A stretch of 64,000 nucleotides of DNA, taken from positions 62,001 to 126,000 of the forward strand of contig CANMZT010000005.1 in assembly GCA_947502405.1 (NCBI GenBank), written 5' to 3'. This stretch comes from an uncultured Algibacter sp. (GTDB lineage Bacteria > Bacteroidota > Bacteroidia > Flavobacteriales > Flavobacteriaceae). The position numbers and the translations under genes are program-made. The notes under the pieces are model-generated. The model did not search any database, was not told the DNA's origin, and worked only from the letters and a program-made list of their open reading frames with translations. The stretch's first letter is position 1. Each line of letters begins with the position of its first letter. Shown here piece by piece: positions 24,302-51,868 of this stretch.

Positions 24302-25495
24302 ATGATTAAATCTATCAAAAAGGTAAATACATTCGTACTCGATTTTTATAAAACCAAAAATTCGGAGAAAATTACATATCATACGTATCAGCATACCTTA
24401 GAGTTGGTAAAGTCTGCTAATAAGTTGATTAAGAAATCAGATTTCAATACCTCTGAAACTGTAGTTTTACAAATGGCATTACTTTTTTCGAATCTAGGGT
24501 ATAATTTAGACTATAAAAACCCTTTCGAAAAAAACATAGAAATATTAGAGGAGTATTTTGTTAATGAATCTGAGCATAAAGAGTTAAAAGAAGATATAAG
24601 CGGTTGCCTTCAAGTACTTTTGACTAAAACACCTGCAACCGATTTAGAGAAAGCATTTTTAGATATTTATTTTTCTGATTTTGGTAGAAAAAAGTTTCTT
24701 AAAAGAAATAGTTTATTGCGTTATGAAATAAATGCTTTTTCAAATGAGAAATTATCAGAATATGAATGGATAGCATATCAAATAGGACTATTAACAAATC
24801 ATAAGTATTATTCTGATTATGCGATAATGAATTGGCAACCTACCAAGCGCAAAAACCTTGCGTCTCTTTTAAAAGCAAAATCTAAATTAGAAAAAGTAGA
24901 TGAAAAAGAGCGATTGAAAGCTAAGTATAAGACAAAATATAAAAATGAAAGTCCAGAACGTGGTATTCAAACTTTATATCGAGTTGCTTTAAGAAACCAT
25001 ATTAAACTTAGTGATATTGCCGATACTAAGGCTAATATTTTACTCTCAGTTAATGCTATTATTATATCATTAGTACTAGCAAATATTATACCTCAATTAG
25101 ATAATCCTTCAAATAGATTCATGATTTTGCCAACAATAATTTTTGTTACATTTTCTATCATTTCTATGATAATGTCTATCAAAGCAACACAACCTAATGT
25201 AACACGCGGAGAGTTTACCCAAGAAGATTTAAAAAATAAGAATGTTAATCTGGCATTTTTTGGAAACTTTCATAAAATGGAGTTGGAGAAGTACCAATCT
25301 GCTTTTAGTAATTTAATTAAAAAAAAGGAAGACGTCTACGACACTCTAACTAAAGACCTTTATTTTTTGGGTTCAGTGTTAGATTCAAAATATAAATTAT
25401 TACGCTACACGTATCTTGTTTTTATGTCTGGTATTATTATATCAGTATTGGTTTTTGCGATTGCGTTCATATACAGAGATTCTATAACAATTTAA
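24302..25495 (+). CDS. Degenerate HD domain fused to Pycsar-effector-type membrane domain
   Basis: 397 aa. Residues 1-190 align by eye with HD-superfamily phosphohydrolases: His27 and His31 in TYHTYQHTLELV are kept, but the central HD doublet is replaced (LLFSNLGY at 61-67 where relatives have FHDxGY) and the later DAD motif reads IYFSDFG (122-128). Residues 228-392 form the DUF5706 / PycTM domain (RNHIKLSDIADTKANILLSV) with three predicted membrane helices near 243-265, 272-294 and 371-391. PycTM effectors are membrane-disrupting proteins activated by cyclic pyrimidine nucleotides in Pycsar immunity. The loss of HD residues predicts a ligand-binding or structural rather than hydrolytic N-terminus. 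No cyclase gene is adjacent. Confidence 0.8.
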   Translation: MIKSIKKVNTFVLDFYKTKNSEKITYHTYQHTLELVKSANKLIKKSDFNTSETVVLQMALLFSNLGYNLDYKNPFEKNIEILEEYFVNESEHKELKEDISGCLQVLLTKTPATDLEKAFLDIYFSDFGRKKFLKRNSLLRYEINAFSNEKLSEYEWIAYQIGLLTNHKYYSDYAIMNWQPTKRKNLASLLKAKSKLEKVDEKERLKAKYKTKYKNESPERGIQTLYRVALRNHIKLSDIADTKANILLSVNAIIISLVLANIIPQLDNPSNRFMILPTIIFVTFSIISMIMSIKATQPNVTRGEFTQEDLKNKNVNLAFFGNFHKMELEKYQSAFSNLIKKKEDVYDTLTKDLYFLGSVLDSKYKLLRYTYLVFMSGIIISVLVFAIAFIYRDSITI

Positions 25496-25757: not shown

Positions 25758-27035
25758 ATGACCGTCAAGAGAATAATTTATAGTATTATTTTAGTGGGTT
25801 TTGCTTTATTGTTTATTACTTACCTTAAATTATCATCAGATACAATCCCGCCTCACAATTGCATAATCCATACAGATACTGATATTAACGCTATAAATTT
25901 TCGAAATTTTGATAGTGTTACCCTTAGCGCAACTTACGCGTACAAAGGCGATCTATTAAAAAACGTCCTACAAGGAAATAATTACAGAAGAAGTTGGGAA
26001 GCTAAAATAAAAGCACCTATTATTTATTTAGATACGCTTTACGGAGGTGTAGAGATTGTTAAAGAGGGCGGAGGTAAACAAACGAATTCATTAAGGTTAC
26101 GGACTAAGGATAGTTTATTACTAACCTTAAGAAGTGTAAATAAAAACCCAAATGCGCTTGTGCCAGACTACCTAAAAAATCTAGGATTAGAAAATATTGT
26201 GATGGATGGTATATCTGGACAACATCCCTATGCTACTCTGGTTGTTTCAAACCTAGCAGAAGCTATAAATATCATGCATACCCACCCAAGGGTTGTATTT
26301 CTACCTAAGCAAAATTCTATGGGTAATTATTTCAATAGCAAATATGGTAATAAGCTATATCTGCTAGAGTATGAAAACAAAGGGCGCTTTAATTGGACTA
26401 CATATGATAAGGTTAGCGAAATTGTAGATACAGACAATTTACAGAAGTTAAAAGGGGAGTTAAAGGATAAATTGGCAGTCGATAAGCATAAACTTATTAG
26501 AGCAAGGTTATTTGATATAGTTATTGGCGATTGGGATAGACACGCGAAACAATGGGGTTGGATTGTGACGAAAACAGATGGTTTATATAAAGCCATTCCT
26601 TTACCGGCAGATAGGGATAACGCTTTTTTTAATGTTGAAGGCATTATAAATAAACTCATATCAGATGAATCAATAACGCCACACTTAAGGTCGTTCGAGA
26701 CAGATGTTAACTATATAGAAGGTTTAGTATATGATTTTGATGTTTATTTTCTTCAGAATACAACGCTAGATGAATTTATAGCTGAAGCTAGATACATTAA
26801 AACACAGTTAACCAACAAAAGTATAGAGAGAGCTTTTAGAGCATGGAATAAAGAAATTTATGATTTAGACGCTGAATCTATAACTGAAAAGATTAAATCA
26901 AGACGCGATAAATTAGAAGAAATTGCCAGAAGATTTAAACAAGCATTAGATAAAAAACCACTATTAAACAAACCATTAAAAGGTTCTGATAGCAATGATA
27001 CTAAGGGTGCTTCAATACAATGTTTTGAGTGTTAA
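25758..27035 (+). CDS. Membrane-anchored protein homologous to the kinase-like middle domain of the 48167-51868 surface protein
   Basis: 425 aa. An N-terminal signal anchor (IIYSIILVGFALLFITYL) is followed by one large domain. It matches the middle domain of the 1233-aa protein at 48167-51868 along its length: LDTLYGGVEIVKEGGGKQT with LDTLYGGLEIVRKGGGHQT, SLRLRTKD with SLRLKTKD, HPYATLVV with HPYAFLAV, IRARLFDIVIGDWDRHAKQW with IRARLFDMLLGDWDRHQDQW, and ADRDNAFF with RDRDQVFS. The DRH (residues 260-262) and later RD pair recall the catalytic and metal-binding residues of Fam20C/HipA-like atypical kinases; that is inference. It sits 23 nt after the Pmp3-like gene and 5 nt before an AI-2E-type transporter, so probably one operon. 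Confidence 0.6.
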   Translation: MTVKRIIYSIILVGFALLFITYLKLSSDTIPPHNCIIHTDTDINAINFRNFDSVTLSATYAYKGDLLKNVLQGNNYRRSWEAKIKAPIIYLDTLYGGVEIVKEGGGKQTNSLRLRTKDSLLLTLRSVNKNPNALVPDYLKNLGLENIVMDGISGQHPYATLVVSNLAEAINIMHTHPRVVFLPKQNSMGNYFNSKYGNKLYLLEYENKGRFNWTTYDKVSEIVDTDNLQKLKGELKDKLAVDKHKLIRARLFDIVIGDWDRHAKQWGWIVTKTDGLYKAIPLPADRDNAFFNVEGIINKLISDESITPHLRSFETDVNYIEGLVYDFDVYFLQNTTLDEFIAEARYIKTQLTNKSIERAFRAWNKEIYDLDAESITEKIKSRRDKLEEIARRFKQALDKKPLLNKPLKGSDSNDTKGASIQCFEC

Positions 27036-46091: not shown

Positions 46092-46889
46092 ATGAAATAT
46101 ATAATTATTTTATTTTTCAGTTTAATTTTAAATGCGCAGTCTCAAGAGTTACAGAAAATAACTCCAATAGATGAAGATTTGGATGAAGTATCTGCTGTAG
46201 AACAAATATCCAATGATTCTAAATTCTGGGTAATCCAGGATTCTGGAAATGATAATATTTTATATCGCATTAATGGAAATGGAAACATAGTAAATACAAT
46301 AGAAGTTGTAAACGCTACAAATGATGATTGGGAAGATTTAACTTCAGATGAAAATGGTAATATCTATATTGGTGATTTTGGAAACAACTCCAAAAAACGT
46401 AAAACCTTTTTAATTTATAAGATTAATAATTCAGATTTAAATTCAGAAAAAGCGACATCTCAGAAAATTGAGTTTAAGCTGCCTAAAAAGAATAAATCTA
46501 AAGACTTTGAAGCTTTCTTCTTATTTAATAATAATTTTTACATGTTTAGTAAAGAAAACAATAGAACAGTAGTTTACAAAGTGCCTAATAAAATAGGTTC
46601 GCATACCGCAAGTTTTGAAAAAAAAATTAAGCTTAAAGGTAAGCATAATAAAGTTACTTCAGCAGATATAAGCCCTAATGGAAAGCGAGTAGTTTTATTA
46701 AACCATGATAAAATTTGGCTTTTAACCGACTATAAAAATGATGATTTTTTTGAAGGAAGTGTTAAAAAAATGGATTTAAATCATGATTCTCAAAAAGAAG
46801 GTGTTTATTTTAAATTAGATGATACGCTTATATTATCTGATGAGCAAAATGATGATGAAGGTAGCAACCTGTATGTTTTTAAGCTATAG
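46092..46889 (+). CDS. Secreted beta-propeller-like protein
   Basis: 265 aa with a signal peptide (cleavage near NAQSQ). Repeating strand motifs with Asp/Gly turns (FWVIQDSGNDNILYRING, DWEDLTSDENGNIYIGDFGNN, VTSADISPNGKRVVLLNHD) suggest a propeller of the phytase/SMP-30/NHL kind. The motif DWEDLTSDENGNIYIGDFGNN, quoted in part, is common in Flavobacteriia secreted proteins. No catalytic set can be assigned. Confidence 0.6.
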   Translation: MKYIIILFFSLILNAQSQELQKITPIDEDLDEVSAVEQISNDSKFWVIQDSGNDNILYRINGNGNIVNTIEVVNATNDDWEDLTSDENGNIYIGDFGNNSKKRKTFLIYKINNSDLNSEKATSQKIEFKLPKKNKSKDFEAFFLFNNNFYMFSKENNRTVVYKVPNKIGSHTASFEKKIKLKGKHNKVTSADISPNGKRVVLLNHDKIWLLTDYKNDDFFEGSVKKMDLNHDSQKEGVYFKLDDTLILSDEQNDDEGSNLYVFKL

Positions 46890-48166: not shown

Positions 48167-51100
48167 TTATAAATTGAAATTAAAACCAAACGAAAATCTT
48201 AATCCATCTACGCTATTAAATAAATTAAAAGTACCCGAAATAGACTCTGCTGATGATACCCAAAAACCACCTCCGTACGATTGATGCCATGTGTTTGAGG
48301 TCTCATCATTAACCCAAACTCGCCCAATATCATAACCTCCAAAAATTCCAATTTGTAGTGGTAAGGTTTTGGTTTTAAATGAGTTAAAGCTATACCTTAA
48401 ATCAGCATTTCCAACTAAGGCATTTTGTCCTGTAAAACGCTGTAGTCTATAGCCTCTTAAACCTGTACTGCCACCAATGTTTGCAGCTTGATAAAAAACA
48501 ATATCATTGCCAAATCTAAGTTGTGTGCGCATATCAGTTTTTAAAACTAGTTTTCTGTTTTTAGAGATACTATTGTAGAACCCTAAATGGGAATTTAAGT
48601 AACCAAATGTTTGTTTACTATTATCAATTTCTGTTTTAGCTCCTAAATCGATATTAAATAGCATACCTCTAGTTGGGTTAATGGCCTCATCATAACTTTG
48701 ATATTTAAAGATACCTTCAAGACCAGCAAAATAGCGTCGCTCATAAAAATCTGTATTGGTTTCATCTATTAAATCTGTAATAAATCTATTATCGGTATCG
48801 TCTATTTCAATACCTTCAAAAATGCCTCTAAATCCGAAATCGCTTCCAAAAGCCCCCTTTTTTAAAACACCAACTTTAAATCTATAAATACTAGTCCTAA
48901 CACGATTATAATCAAAGTCTAAATCGTCATCATTATTTAGACTTTCATTGCCAAATCCAAAAAAGTTCTGAGCAAAATTATTGGAAGTAAAAAGGCCTTC
49001 TACATGCATATTCCATTGCTCAACAACATTATATTCGCCATTGTAACGTAAATCAAATCCTTCAGTCGCAAAATAATAGCCTATTTTAAAATTATGTTTA
49101 GACGTAAAAGGGTTACGTTCAAATCCATAATTTGTTTTTGTTACAGATAACCCTGTAAGTAAACCATCATCAGGGTTGAATCCTAATATTGGCGAAAAGA
49201 TTCCAGAGGAAGAGTTATATTTCTTATAATCAAAAACATTGAAATTGTAAAAGTTTGTAAAATGTACATCTGCACCATTTTTTTGTAAAACAGTATTTGG
49301 TTTTGTTTTATGATCGTAGATTTTAATACGATTTCCTTTTGCAACTGAATAGGTGTCGTTTTCCTGTCCACCAATTAACCTTATTTTAATGGGGTTTTTT
49401 ACCCTGCCAGTTACGGTAAAGGTATCTTTGTCATCCAAACCATAAATCCACAATTCCTTTGTGAGATTGCGATTAAAAGTTTTATCAACAAGTACATCAG
49501 CACGTTTTCCGTCTTTATTTCGTGTAATAACTATTCGAGTTTTGTTGTTTTTTTGTCTTTCAATATCGATAAAGTCATCTTTGTCAGTTCCAGTTAGAAT
49601 TACAAGGTTATTTAAAAACTTGTAATAGCGTTCTGCAATTTTTACAAGGTTTTGTTTTCTGTTTGTAAAATGCGTTTTAATGTCTTTAAGGCTTTCATCT
49701 TTTACTTCGTCTGGTAATGCTGAAAAAGCACTATTAACTACCGTTTCGTTTATATTATTTTGAATGTATTTGGCTTCAGCAATCCAATCTTCTAGATTAG
49801 CTTGTTGAATTAATATTCGATCTAATTTAACACCAGCGTTATTCATCCATGCTATATCGCCTTCATCTACATCATCATCATAAACTTGTAATTGTTTTGA
49901 GGAGCTAGAAATAAAGCGCATAACATCTAGCAAACCACCATCAAAATTAGAAAATACTTGGTCGCGGTCTCTGGGGATAGGCTTATAGAGCTTATCGCCA
50001 TTAGGTTGATCAAATTGTGCCCAACGCCATTGATCTTGGTGTCTGTCCCAATCTCCTAGAAGCATGTCAAATAAACGAGCTCTAATAAAAGCATTCTCAT
50101 CAATTTTATATTTTTCGTCTTTTCTTATTTTTTGAATAATATCGTGTGTACTTTCAATGTCGTCAGGATTGTTAAAAGTATTGCCTTCATAATTATCTTC
50201 TGGACGTTCTTCTATCATGTAAAGTTCGTTACCATACTCATCATTGTATTTACCTAGATGTTTGTGTTTAGGAATGTAGTATAGTTTAGGGTTTGTGTGT
50301 AATACGTTGATAGCATCTGAGAGTTTTGGAACTGCTAAAAATGCATAAGGATGCGCAGAGGTATAAAAGTCTAAAATTAAACCTTCAACTTTAGTACGCT
50401 CAAAATCATCCTCAATATATTTGTCTTTAAAAAGCACAGTTTGTAAATATTGTGTAGCGCTCTTTTTTAGAGCTCGCATATTTAATTCTCTGCCATCTTT
50501 AGTTTTTAAACGTAAAGATCGAGTTTGGTGCCCACCACCTTTACGTACAATCTCTAACCCTCCATACAACGTGTCTAATGTAGCTACTTTAACATTTATA
50601 TCTGTACTGTATAGTTGACGATAATGCTTGCCCCAAACTGTTTCAAAAAAACCTGTACGATCTGTTTGTTCATCAGTATATATGGATGTTCGAATTTCTT
50701 TAGGAAAAGTGTCTGGTAGCGTTGAAACATCATACACTTTTTTAGGTGGAAATACTTCTTTTTGATATAATAGTTTAGGTGCTTCATTCTCATAGCCAAA
50801 AAATTGTACCCAAGAACTGCCGTCTTCATAAATTATAAATTCAGCAAAACCTTCTTTCCCATAAGAAAATAGCCCGTTGTTGCTTAAACTTGCATTGGAA
50901 TGTTTAGAGGCAGATCCAGAAACAATTTGTTTTATGTACTCATCTTCAATGTATTGTAAAGAGTGTTCATGACCAGATACTACAATTACATTATTATAAT
51001 CTACCAATAGAGGTTCTAACCTGCTCATTAATTCGTTGTATCTTTCGTTGTATCTATCTTGAATAGAAACACCGCCTTGAGTGCGAATTTGTGTAATTAA

Positions 51101-51868
51101 AGTGGCTAGTCCAGGCATTGGTATTTTCCCTTGAAACGGATATAAATGTTTTGAAGCACCATAAAAACCACCGTGAGTACCGTTTGTGTACATAGGGTGA
51201 TGCATGGCGAATACCACGGTTTTATTTTGTGCTTTTTTTAAAGCACCTTCAACTTCCATAAAAAAGCGTTCTCGTGTTTTTATTTCACACTCATCATTAA
51301 TAGTAGGATGTCGGTTCCAATTTTCTAAATACCATTGTGTATCAATAATAATAAGCTCTACAGTATCGCTAATTTCCACGCGTTCTAATGGGCATCCATT
51401 TTCTGGTAAAAAAGAATTTTTACCAAGCGCTTCCTCAACATATTTTTCTTGATTTTTTAAACCTTTTACACCTTTGGAATACCAATCATGATTTCCAGGA
51501 ATAAAAACAGTTTGACCTTTAAAATTTGCAACAGCGTTAATTTGAAGATTTAAATCAATCTTGGCTTGGGCTCGCTTAGGGGAATCTTTGTCTGGCAATC
51601 CAGAAGGATAAATATTGTCTCCTAAATAAATTACAAAATCGTCTTTAGTGTCTTTTCCTTGTATATAAGCTTTAAAGGCTTTAAGACCATTTGCCTCTAG
51701 ATTATTATAAGATTTTCCTGCATCTCCTACTAAATAAAACTTATTTTCAACCGGTTTATTAGGTAATTGCATTGGTGTAAATCCACCGTTACTATACTGC
51801 GATTTTACTGTAGCGCATGAAAATATTACTAAGATTGTTAATAGATATAATATATATTTAAGCTTCAT
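48167..51868 (-). CDS. Lipoprotein fusion: metallophosphoesterase, kinase-like domain, BamA-like barrel
   Basis: 1233 aa. Lipobox Cys18 (LVIFSCATV). Residues about 42-370 form a calcineurin-like phosphoesterase: LVGDAG, YLGDNIY, FIPGNHDWY, MHHPMYTNGTHG, VSGHEHS. Residues about 415-760 are a second domain with LYGGLEIVRKGGGHQTRSLRL, LLGDWDRHQDQWRW (605-618) and PIPRDRDQVF (630-639); its DRH and RD pairs recall Fam20C/HipA-like kinases (inference). From about 780 a short beta region leads into a 16-strand-type barrel of the BamA/TamA/surface-antigen family with GGSTGLRGYRLQRFTGQ and a terminal Leu. The order implies a phosphoesterase held at the cell surface. The gene overlaps topoisomerase IB by 11 nt. 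Confidence 0.75.
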   Translation of the reverse strand: MKLKYILYLLTILVIFSCATVKSQYSNGGFTPMQLPNKPVENKFYLVGDAGKSYNNLEANGLKAFKAYIQGKDTKDDFVIYLGDNIYPSGLPDKDSPKRAQAKIDLNLQINAVANFKGQTVFIPGNHDWYSKGVKGLKNQEKYVEEALGKNSFLPENGCPLERVEISDTVELIIIDTQWYLENWNRHPTINDECEIKTRERFFMEVEGALKKAQNKTVVFAMHHPMYTNGTHGGFYGASKHLYPFQGKIPMPGLATLITQIRTQGGVSIQDRYNERYNELMSRLEPLLVDYNNVIVVSGHEHSLQYIEDEYIKQIVSGSASKHSNASLSNNGLFSYGKEGFAEFIIYEDGSSWVQFFGYENEAPKLLYQKEVFPPKKVYDVSTLPDTFPKEIRTSIYTDEQTDRTGFFETVWGKHYRQLYSTDINVKVATLDTLYGGLEIVRKGGGHQTRSLRLKTKDGRELNMRALKKSATQYLQTVLFKDKYIEDDFERTKVEGLILDFYTSAHPYAFLAVPKLSDAINVLHTNPKLYYIPKHKHLGKYNDEYGNELYMIEERPEDNYEGNTFNNPDDIESTHDIIQKIRKDEKYKIDENAFIRARLFDMLLGDWDRHQDQWRWAQFDQPNGDKLYKPIPRDRDQVFSNFDGGLLDVMRFISSSSKQLQVYDDDVDEGDIAWMNNAGVKLDRILIQQANLEDWIAEAKYIQNNINETVVNSAFSALPDEVKDESLKDIKTHFTNRKQNLVKIAERYYKFLNNLVILTGTDKDDFIDIERQKNNKTRIVITRNKDGKRADVLVDKTFNRNLTKELWIYGLDDKDTFTVTGRVKNPIKIRLIGGQENDTYSVAKGNRIKIYDHKTKPNTVLQKNGADVHFTNFYNFNVFDYKKYNSSSGIFSPILGFNPDDGLLTGLSVTKTNYGFERNPFTSKHNFKIGYYFATEGFDLRYNGEYNVVEQWNMHVEGLFTSNNFAQNFFGFGNESLNNDDDLDFDYNRVRTSIYRFKVGVLKKGAFGSDFGFRGIFEGIEIDDTDNRFITDLIDETNTDFYERRYFAGLEGIFKYQSYDEAINPTRGMLFNIDLGAKTEIDNSKQTFGYLNSHLGFYNSISKNRKLVLKTDMRTQLRFGNDIVFYQAANIGGSTGLRGYRLQRFTGQNALVGNADLRYSFNSFKTKTLPLQIGIFGGYDIGRVWVNDETSNTWHQSYGGGFWVSSAESISGTFNLFNSVDGLRFSFGFNFNL

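Follow-up and report, generated by a model that had tools for sequence, protein, structure and literature searches.

The gene at 48167-51868 and its modules

The window analysed here is a stretch of 64,000 nucleotides from an uncultured Algibacter sp. of the Flavobacteriaceae (contig CANMZT010000005.1). Positions 48167-51868 of the window are filled by a single intact open reading frame (ORF) of 1233 amino acids, which had originally been predicted to encode one surface lipoprotein with a phosphoesterase, a kinase-like domain and a BamA-type barrel. The coordinates given in that prediction were correct, and the strand, which it had not stated, is minus. The product consists of a purple acid phosphatase (PAP)-like phosphoesterase, a kinase-fold domain, a beta-solenoid and an Omp85 barrel, all encoded on the minus strand. 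The signal peptide has a lipobox with Cys18 (51815-51868), and the residues after the cysteine, ATVKSQYS, do not contain the acidic export motif discussed below. The PAP-like metallophosphoesterase spans about residues 41-380 (50729-51748) and was assigned from Pfam (PF00149), phmmer, a ligand census and a fold search. The kinase-fold domain (residues 410-771; 49556-50641) was assigned from its predicted structure, profile comparisons and residue conservation. The beta-solenoid-like linker (about residues 755-870; 49259-49606) shows up in the full-length model as a run of short, regular strands, and the 16-strand barrel of the Omp85/BamA type, with a GLRGYR loop motif, occupies residues 886-1231 (48176-49213) according to the models and Foldseek.

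The motifs on which the original prediction was built were all located. The lipobox reads FSC with Cys18, and the phosphoesterase motifs are GDAG (48-51), GDNIY (83-87), GNHD (125-128) and GHEH (299-302), together with AMHHP at residues 221-225. The central domain contains LLGDWDRHQDQW at 603-614 and PIPRDRDQVF at 630-639, the barrel contains GLRGYR at 1136-1141, and the numbering of Asp608 and Asp634 was right. This set of motifs exceeds chance: the Metallophos model is matched over its cut-off, the Omp85 model is matched, and the central motifs reappear across the 133 domains that were scored. In the Pfam scan of the whole protein, metallophosphoesterase was the sole family over the cut-off, and residues 410-771 had no Pfam family. 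The same genome encodes a full-length paralogue with 46% identity on a different contig (L002).

The phosphatase domain

The Metallophos model matched with 40 bits against a cut-off of 21.5 (E 7e-10), and phmmer aligned only residues 280-354 to purple acid phosphatase (E 3e-4). The putative metal ligands are D49, D84, Y87, N126, H223, H300 and H302, and this seven-ligand motif with its tyrosine is the signature of purple acid phosphatases. Among 84 phosphatase domains from a phylum sample of 296 Bacteroidota genomes, D49 was kept in 78, D84 in 82, Y87 in 77, N126 in 78, H223 in 84, H300 in 82 and H302 in 79. In the Flavobacteriales set, each of the same seven positions was kept in 74-80 of 83 domains. 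When the full-length model was searched with Foldseek, GAP50, a phosphoesterase-fold protein, stood at rank 6.

The barrel and the location of the domains

The full-length model, built for residues 34-1233 from 68 sequences, has a predicted local distance difference test (pLDDT) value of 87.2 and a predicted template modelling (pTM) score of 0.83. It contains the phosphatase, the kinase-fold domain, the solenoid-like short strands and a barrel of 16 long strands, with BamA and TamA at the top of its Foldseek matches (best E 2.9e-10). The barrel is C-terminal and has a loop motif of the RGF/Y type. It matched the Omp85 model with E 5.7e-23 and 82 bits, under the cut-off of 200, and the match to the ShlB model was likewise below its cut-off. 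Omp85 proteins usually carry POTRA domains where the solenoid-like linker sits here; scans of the 1233-residue protein against Pfam (E up to 10) and NCBIfam (E up to 1) gave no POTRA match.

In Omp85 proteins the N-terminal domains are periplasmic. Two or more acidic residues at positions +2 to +6 after the lipobox cysteine are a signature of surface export in Bacteroidota. By a crude lipobox pattern, with some start codons that will be wrong, 96 of 221 proteins had a lipobox; none of these 96 had two or more Asp or Glu residues at +2 to +6, and 26 had one. Because of the Omp85 topology and the lack of the acidic motif in the 96 lipobox proteins, the phosphatase and kinase-fold domains would be periplasmic. 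The predicted exposure at the cell surface was thus not borne out, since these domains precede an Omp85-type barrel and lack the export motif.

The kinase-fold domain

An AlphaFold2 model of the central domain was built from 72 sequences (mean pLDDT 83.6, pTM 0.85). Its first part consists of three strands, of which strands 1 and 2 are joined by a Gly-rich turn, followed by helices and two more strands ending at the conserved E553. Additional short elements then lead to a helix, after which the chain runs through the DWDRH loop and a pair of strands to the PRDRD motif. In the DSSP assignment of the model, the loop with D608 is followed by two strands and then by D634. The marks of the domain are the Gly-rich turn (443-449), R465, K469, E553, DWDRH (606-610), PRDRD (632-636) and R737. 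In kinases the third strand carries a nucleotide-anchoring Lys; judged from the DSSP of the model, the conserved R465 and K469 are located within that strand or directly behind it, and either may or may not be its counterpart. The order of elements agrees with that of a kinase.

Comparison of the predicted fold with kinases, as had been proposed, returned kinase-type structures, though distant ones. Named kinases make up 41 of the 50 Foldseek rows shown, among them BRAF, p38, Golgi casein kinase/Fam20, PI4KIIalpha, RIO2 and COQ8. PI4KIIalpha had a probability of 1.00 and the highest TM-scores of the rows shown (0.36/0.40), and Golgi casein kinase had a probability of 0.99. Seven rows are Rv3197/MSMEG_1954, which are kinase-like, and two are chains of the pre-40S ribosome, probably RIO kinase.

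Sequence profiles pointed in the same direction. A profile of 44 diverse domains, searched against the PDB, had CtkA, a HipA-like kinase, as the first of 13 matches (E 0.027) with the DRH motif aligned. By hhalign, CotH scored P 4.2e-4 and HipA P 0.003, compared with P 0.08, 0.14 and 0.52 for three control domains; the best P among 48 control alignments of neighbouring gene families, in some of which the membership overlaps, was 0.049. Of the 44 relatives, one matched Fam20C at E 6.7e-4 and one HipA_C at E 0.027, and the 1233-residue protein itself had no CotH, Fam20C or HipA_C match in Pfam up to E 10. Judged from these profiles, the central domain appears to form a separate family within the kinase-like superfamily, located on the CotH/HipA/Fam20C side but belonging to none of these three families.

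Distribution, architectures and conserved residues

The kinase-fold domain was found at 139 places in 111 of the 296 Bacteroidota genomes, covering 61 genera and 24 families; a contig search gave further relatives, of which the best 80 of 594 confirmed places correspond to 79 loci. Among 137 distinct proteins of the phylum sample, with that of the window included, 81 have the phosphatase-kinase-barrel architecture, 42 have the kinase-fold domain and the barrel, and 14 have the kinase-fold domain alone or with a short linker. An outer-membrane barrel is therefore carried by 123 of 137 proteins, and in 81 of them it comes with the phosphatase.

Residues were counted in 133 of the 137 domains, including that of the window, after four short domains were excluded. 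D601 and R737 were kept in all 133, D606 in 131, R609 and K469 in 130 each, E553 in 128, G445 in 127, and D636 and R465 in 125 each. The two aspartates for which a catalytic and a metal-binding role had been suggested are conserved across homologues, Asp608 in 125 and Asp634 in 126 of the 133 domains, with both present in 120. The 13 domains that lack one or both of these aspartates may, from their sequences, be pseudokinases, and their existence indicates that some lineages retain the domain without that chemistry.

At one locus (L051, 7551-11597), the three modules (kinase-fold domain, phosphatase and barrel) are encoded by separate, consecutive genes on the same strand, which argues that they act together. 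Two other loci have clusters of kinase-fold genes without a full barrel, three genes at L049 (7126-12151) and two at L050 (7433-10778), and in each cluster one gene has D608 replaced with Ser. A phage origin of the family was dropped after a scan of viral contigs gave 27 pattern matches and no confirmed relative.

Linkage to genes with a PycTM domain

Matches to PycTM (Pfam PF18967) were divided post hoc, at a gap between 8e-20 and 4e-18, into 106 high-scoring and 26 low-scoring matches. The high-scoring matches occur in 100 genomes, 93 of which also have the kinase-fold domain, and 98 of the 106 matches lie in genomes with the domain. Within 5 kb of a kinase-fold domain we found 71 of the 106 high-scoring matches, where random placement, with genome size set conservatively, predicts 0.73; for the unsplit set, the count is 71 of 132. 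None of the 26 low-scoring matches lies within 10 kb of the domain. Co-occurrence of the domain and PycTM gave a Fisher value of 4e-49, which is not a true probability since the genomes are related. The pairs were hence counted by genus and family: those within 5 kb are found in 70 genomes, representing 37 of the 61 genera and 17 of the 24 families that have the domain. Gene orders and orientations of the pairs vary, and this is evidence against a single passively inherited stretch.

Most of the high-scoring matches (72/106) lie in frames of at least 381 amino acids, which leave room for an HD domain at the N-terminus. Each of the seven HD positions checked was kept in 89-92 of 92 long PycTM proteins. 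A further recurrent gene encodes a protein of about 790 amino acids with weak similarity to GAF (e.g. L126 1926-4349) and adjoins the HD-PycTM gene. It has matches in 61 of the 296 genomes, in two of them as fragments only; 60 of these 61 genomes have the kinase-fold domain, and the GAF-type gene lies no more than 5 kb from it in 38 genomes of six families. In the source genome of the window, the typical block of a GAF-type gene, an HD-PycTM gene and a phosphatase-kinase-barrel gene is present on another contig (L002).

Polyphosphate kinase genes were found in 18 of the 106 stretches around the domain that were surveyed for neighbours, in 10 families. Because polyphosphate kinase is nearly universal in the sample (273 of 296 genomes), only the position of the gene is informative. 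In at least seven genomes, representing five families (G294, G140, G224, G070, G271, G280 and G269), it lies between the PycTM gene and the kinase-fold gene; the distances for this gene rest on 30 of the matches listed, on contigs judged relevant, and are lower bounds.

Two genomes deviate from the pattern. One contig (G218:C2) has a kinase-fold gene without a PycTM match and with short, stop-interrupted GAF-type matches as the only ones nearby, and in another genome, which lacks the domain, the only matches are short PycTM and GAF-type ones, side by side (G128:C39). This hints at joint decay.

A proposed envelope signalling system

Predicted fold, the order of loop, strands and aspartate, profile similarity to CotH and HipA and the conservation of D608 and D634 agree; on this evidence the central domain most likely has an atypical kinase fold and falls on the CotH/HipA/Fam20C/PI4K side. 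Two outcomes had been named beforehand as refuting the kinase idea, a fold unrelated to kinases and unconserved DRH and RD residues, and neither was observed. The idea of an atypical kinase thus gained from the fold, the motif order, the profiles and the aspartates, and lost its placement on the cell surface. From the computed fold, motif conservation, barrel and gene linkage, we infer a periplasmic, outer-membrane-anchored kinase and phosphatase that is coupled to an inner-membrane PycTM protein, a reading to which we give about even confidence. The BamA-like barrel and the beta-solenoid would hold the kinase-fold and PAP-like domains on the periplasmic side of the outer membrane. There the kinase-fold domain would transfer a phosphoryl group to a periplasmic target, with D608 as the putative catalytic base and D634 (perhaps D636) as a putative metal ligand, and the PAP-like domain would strip phosphate from this target or a related one. 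It is plausible that the kinase and the phosphatase are opposing activities, as had been suggested. The partner would be the inner-membrane PycTM protein, which usually bears an HD hydrolase domain on the cytoplasmic side; a GAF-type protein or polyphosphate kinase may join it in some lineages. The whole is probably an envelope signalling system linked to phosphate or nucleotides.

Several results weigh against this proposal. The fold match is distant, with a best Foldseek E of about 1e-3, 2 of 459 matches at or below 0.001 and TM-scores of 0.19-0.40. The CtkA match reaches E 0.027 only, HH-suite probabilities are low (34% for CotH and 10% for HipA), the CotH/HipA alignment covers the second half of the domain only, and the window proteins fall below the cut-off of every Pfam kinase model. 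D608, D634 or both are lost in 13 of 133 domains. As to the partners, a high-scoring PycTM is absent from 18 of the 111 genomes that have the domain, and the domain is absent from 7 of the 100 genomes that have such a PycTM; 34 of the 106 high-scoring matches lie in frames of 190-301 amino acids, too short for HD; and the polyphosphate kinase and GAF neighbours are confined to some lineages. In addition, the periplasm is presumed to contain no ATP.

This last point and the 13 domains without one or both aspartates, the remainder of which is kept as if the scaffold were useful without catalysis, are also what speaks for the main rival. In that case the domain would be a pseudokinase, sensing a bound nucleotide or phosphate compound and controlling the phosphatase or the barrel without phosphate transfer. 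Both aspartates and the residues around them are, however, kept in 120 of 133 domains across the phylum, more than a pure binding scaffold predicts, and we regard the pseudokinase as somewhat unlikely. If ATP is not the donor, polyphosphate is a candidate, from the linkage to polyphosphate kinase in some lineages. A reversible-phosphorylation module in the outer membrane that uses an exported donor such as polyphosphate instead of ATP and reports to HD-PycTM is a conceivable but doubtful elaboration of the kinase-phosphatase proposal. If true, Bacteroidota would have a trans-envelope phospho-signalling system with a part in common with Pycsar immunity.

The domain could instead be a lipid kinase acting on inositol or another outer-membrane lipid; the PAP-like domain would then be the phosphatase for that lipid or its head group. 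PI4KIIalpha, with its Foldseek probability of 1.00 and the top TM-scores, would fit such a role, as would a barrel that puts the domain beside lipid and the PAP2-type phosphatase genes that adjoin 8 of 106 loci in five families (one example scanned). CotH is nevertheless the better fit among the profiles compared (CotH and HipA only) and the PAP2 linkage is weak, which leaves a lipid kinase improbable in our view. Even less credit is due to an ordinary outer-membrane phosphatase for phosphate scavenging, in which the central domain would be a structural or substrate-binding spacer. The conserved Metallophos and PAP-type ligands would be expected of it, and genes for SdiA-type propellers, His_Phos_1 and PAP2 phosphatases adjoin some loci; 42 of the 137 proteins, however, combine the kinase-fold domain and the barrel with no phosphatase in the ORF. 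In addition, strain CI04 of Flavobacterium johnsoniae carries the gene (L126), but the architecture has no entry in a table of phosphate-starvation loci from another strain of that species, with locus tags unmatched (PMC8115612). The kinase-phosphatase proposal is in our view the best of these readings.

To our knowledge, extracytoplasmic kinases are few, and for each the phosphate donor must be explained. The family described here is a kinase-fold family without a Pfam model that is widespread in the Bacteroidota sample and mostly anchored by a barrel. The PycTM membrane domain is known from phage defence, and linkage of the kinase-fold family to a distinct PycTM group raises the prospect that this membrane domain serves a conserved envelope function separate from defence. 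The linkage to PycTM, and in some groups to polyphosphate kinase, suggests an undescribed system of phosphate signalling in the envelope.

Relation to known systems

Spore-coat CotH is extracytoplasmic, a trait that the central domain would share if it is periplasmic. CotH (PF08757) is the better of the two profile matches, with the D-W-D loop, the I-P-x-D motif and the C-terminal helices aligned; unlike CotH kinases, the window proteins have no Pfam CotH match, the HH-suite probability is the 34% given above, and the domain is fused to a PAP-like domain and an Omp85 barrel. With HipA and CtkA (PF07804; P 0.003 for HipA) the domain shares an aligned R-L-F-D ... D-R-H stretch, and it differs from them by a HipA_C score below the cut-off for the stand-alone copy, the 10% HH-suite probability and Gln613, at a position where kinases usually have Asn. 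Secretory kinases of the Fam20C type (PF06702) and PI4KIIalpha resemble it in fold (Foldseek 0.99 and 1.00), and one of the 44 members matches Fam20C; identity is, however, 10-12% and TM-scores are 0.30-0.40, and the window protein is bacterial and anchored in the outer membrane. The seven metal-ligand positions, including the tyrosine, are shared with purple acid phosphatases, from which the window protein differs by its fused kinase-fold domain and barrel. The 16-strand barrel and the R-G-Y loop motif are those of Omp85 proteins such as BamA and TamA, while solenoid, kinase-fold and phosphatase domains stand in place of a POTRA match. Pycsar (PycC and PycTM) resembles the locus in the PycTM domain of the neighbouring gene, which scores above the cut-off, and differs in that 72 of 106 high-scoring PycTM matches lie in long frames of the HD-fusion type and a class III cyclase is found at 23 of 106 loci only. 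Filing the system under Pycsar was rejected on this cyclase count and on the absence of low-scoring PycTM (0/26) near the domain.

In the openly licensed literature we found no earlier description of the phosphatase-kinase-barrel architecture or of its link to PycTM. A study of the Legionella kinome describes four novel families near Fam20/CotH, and in the portion consulted none has the architecture of the window protein (PMC9758233); the excerpts consulted of three further papers contain nothing on that architecture (PMC10013915, PMC10797578, PMC5742166). Two described proteins were set apart. The Riemerella metallophosphoesterase (Niu 2021) is a type IX effector according to a review table, seen in part, and is on that description probably different, and OMP76, given as 710 amino acids in the part of the source consulted, is too short to be the 1233-residue protein.

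Other genes in the window and recurrent neighbours

The window contains a stand-alone copy of the kinase-fold domain, a protein of 425 amino acids encoded on the plus strand (25758-27035), with an N-terminal hydrophobic anchor, intact GDWDRH and DRD motifs and 36% identity to the central domain of the 48167-51868 protein. It scored 13.9 bits with HipA_C against a cut-off of 30.5. In PADLOC, weak matches of the kinase-fold domain to PDC-M03A candidate defence models (E 2e-4 to 3e-3) covered 30-60 residues at the DRH motif, including residues 216-276 of the stand-alone protein at E 2e-4; we read these matches as motif similarity.

Adjoining the stand-alone gene is a gene for an HD-PycTM-type protein of 397 amino acids (24302-25495, plus strand; PF18967 E 1.5e-30). 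Four of the seven HD positions checked are lost in it, with H62, D63, H73 and D123, numbered as in the F. johnsoniae copy (L126), replaced by S, N, P and Y. The second PycTM match of the source genome is on contig C10. No PycTM was found in five other fetched stretches with a stand-alone copy of 423-425 amino acids (L054-L058), and the pairing in the window may therefore be local.

A protein of the SdiA-regulated/NHL propeller type is encoded at 46092-46889 (plus strand) and belongs to the recurrent neighbours of the kinase-fold family. In the census of 106 stretches, for which each gene family was identified by scanning one or two examples, SdiA-type propellers occurred in 25 stretches of 12 families and His_Phos_1 phosphatases in 11 stretches of six families. 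Class III cyclases occurred in 23 stretches of three families, in 21 of them directly downstream on the same strand; the example scanned, a class III nucleotidyl cyclase (L238, 1903-3861), has TPR repeats and weak similarity to PycC (E 5e-7). At 12 loci, a gene for a DUF2254 membrane protein lies directly downstream on the same strand (e.g. L059 9759-11096; one example scanned).

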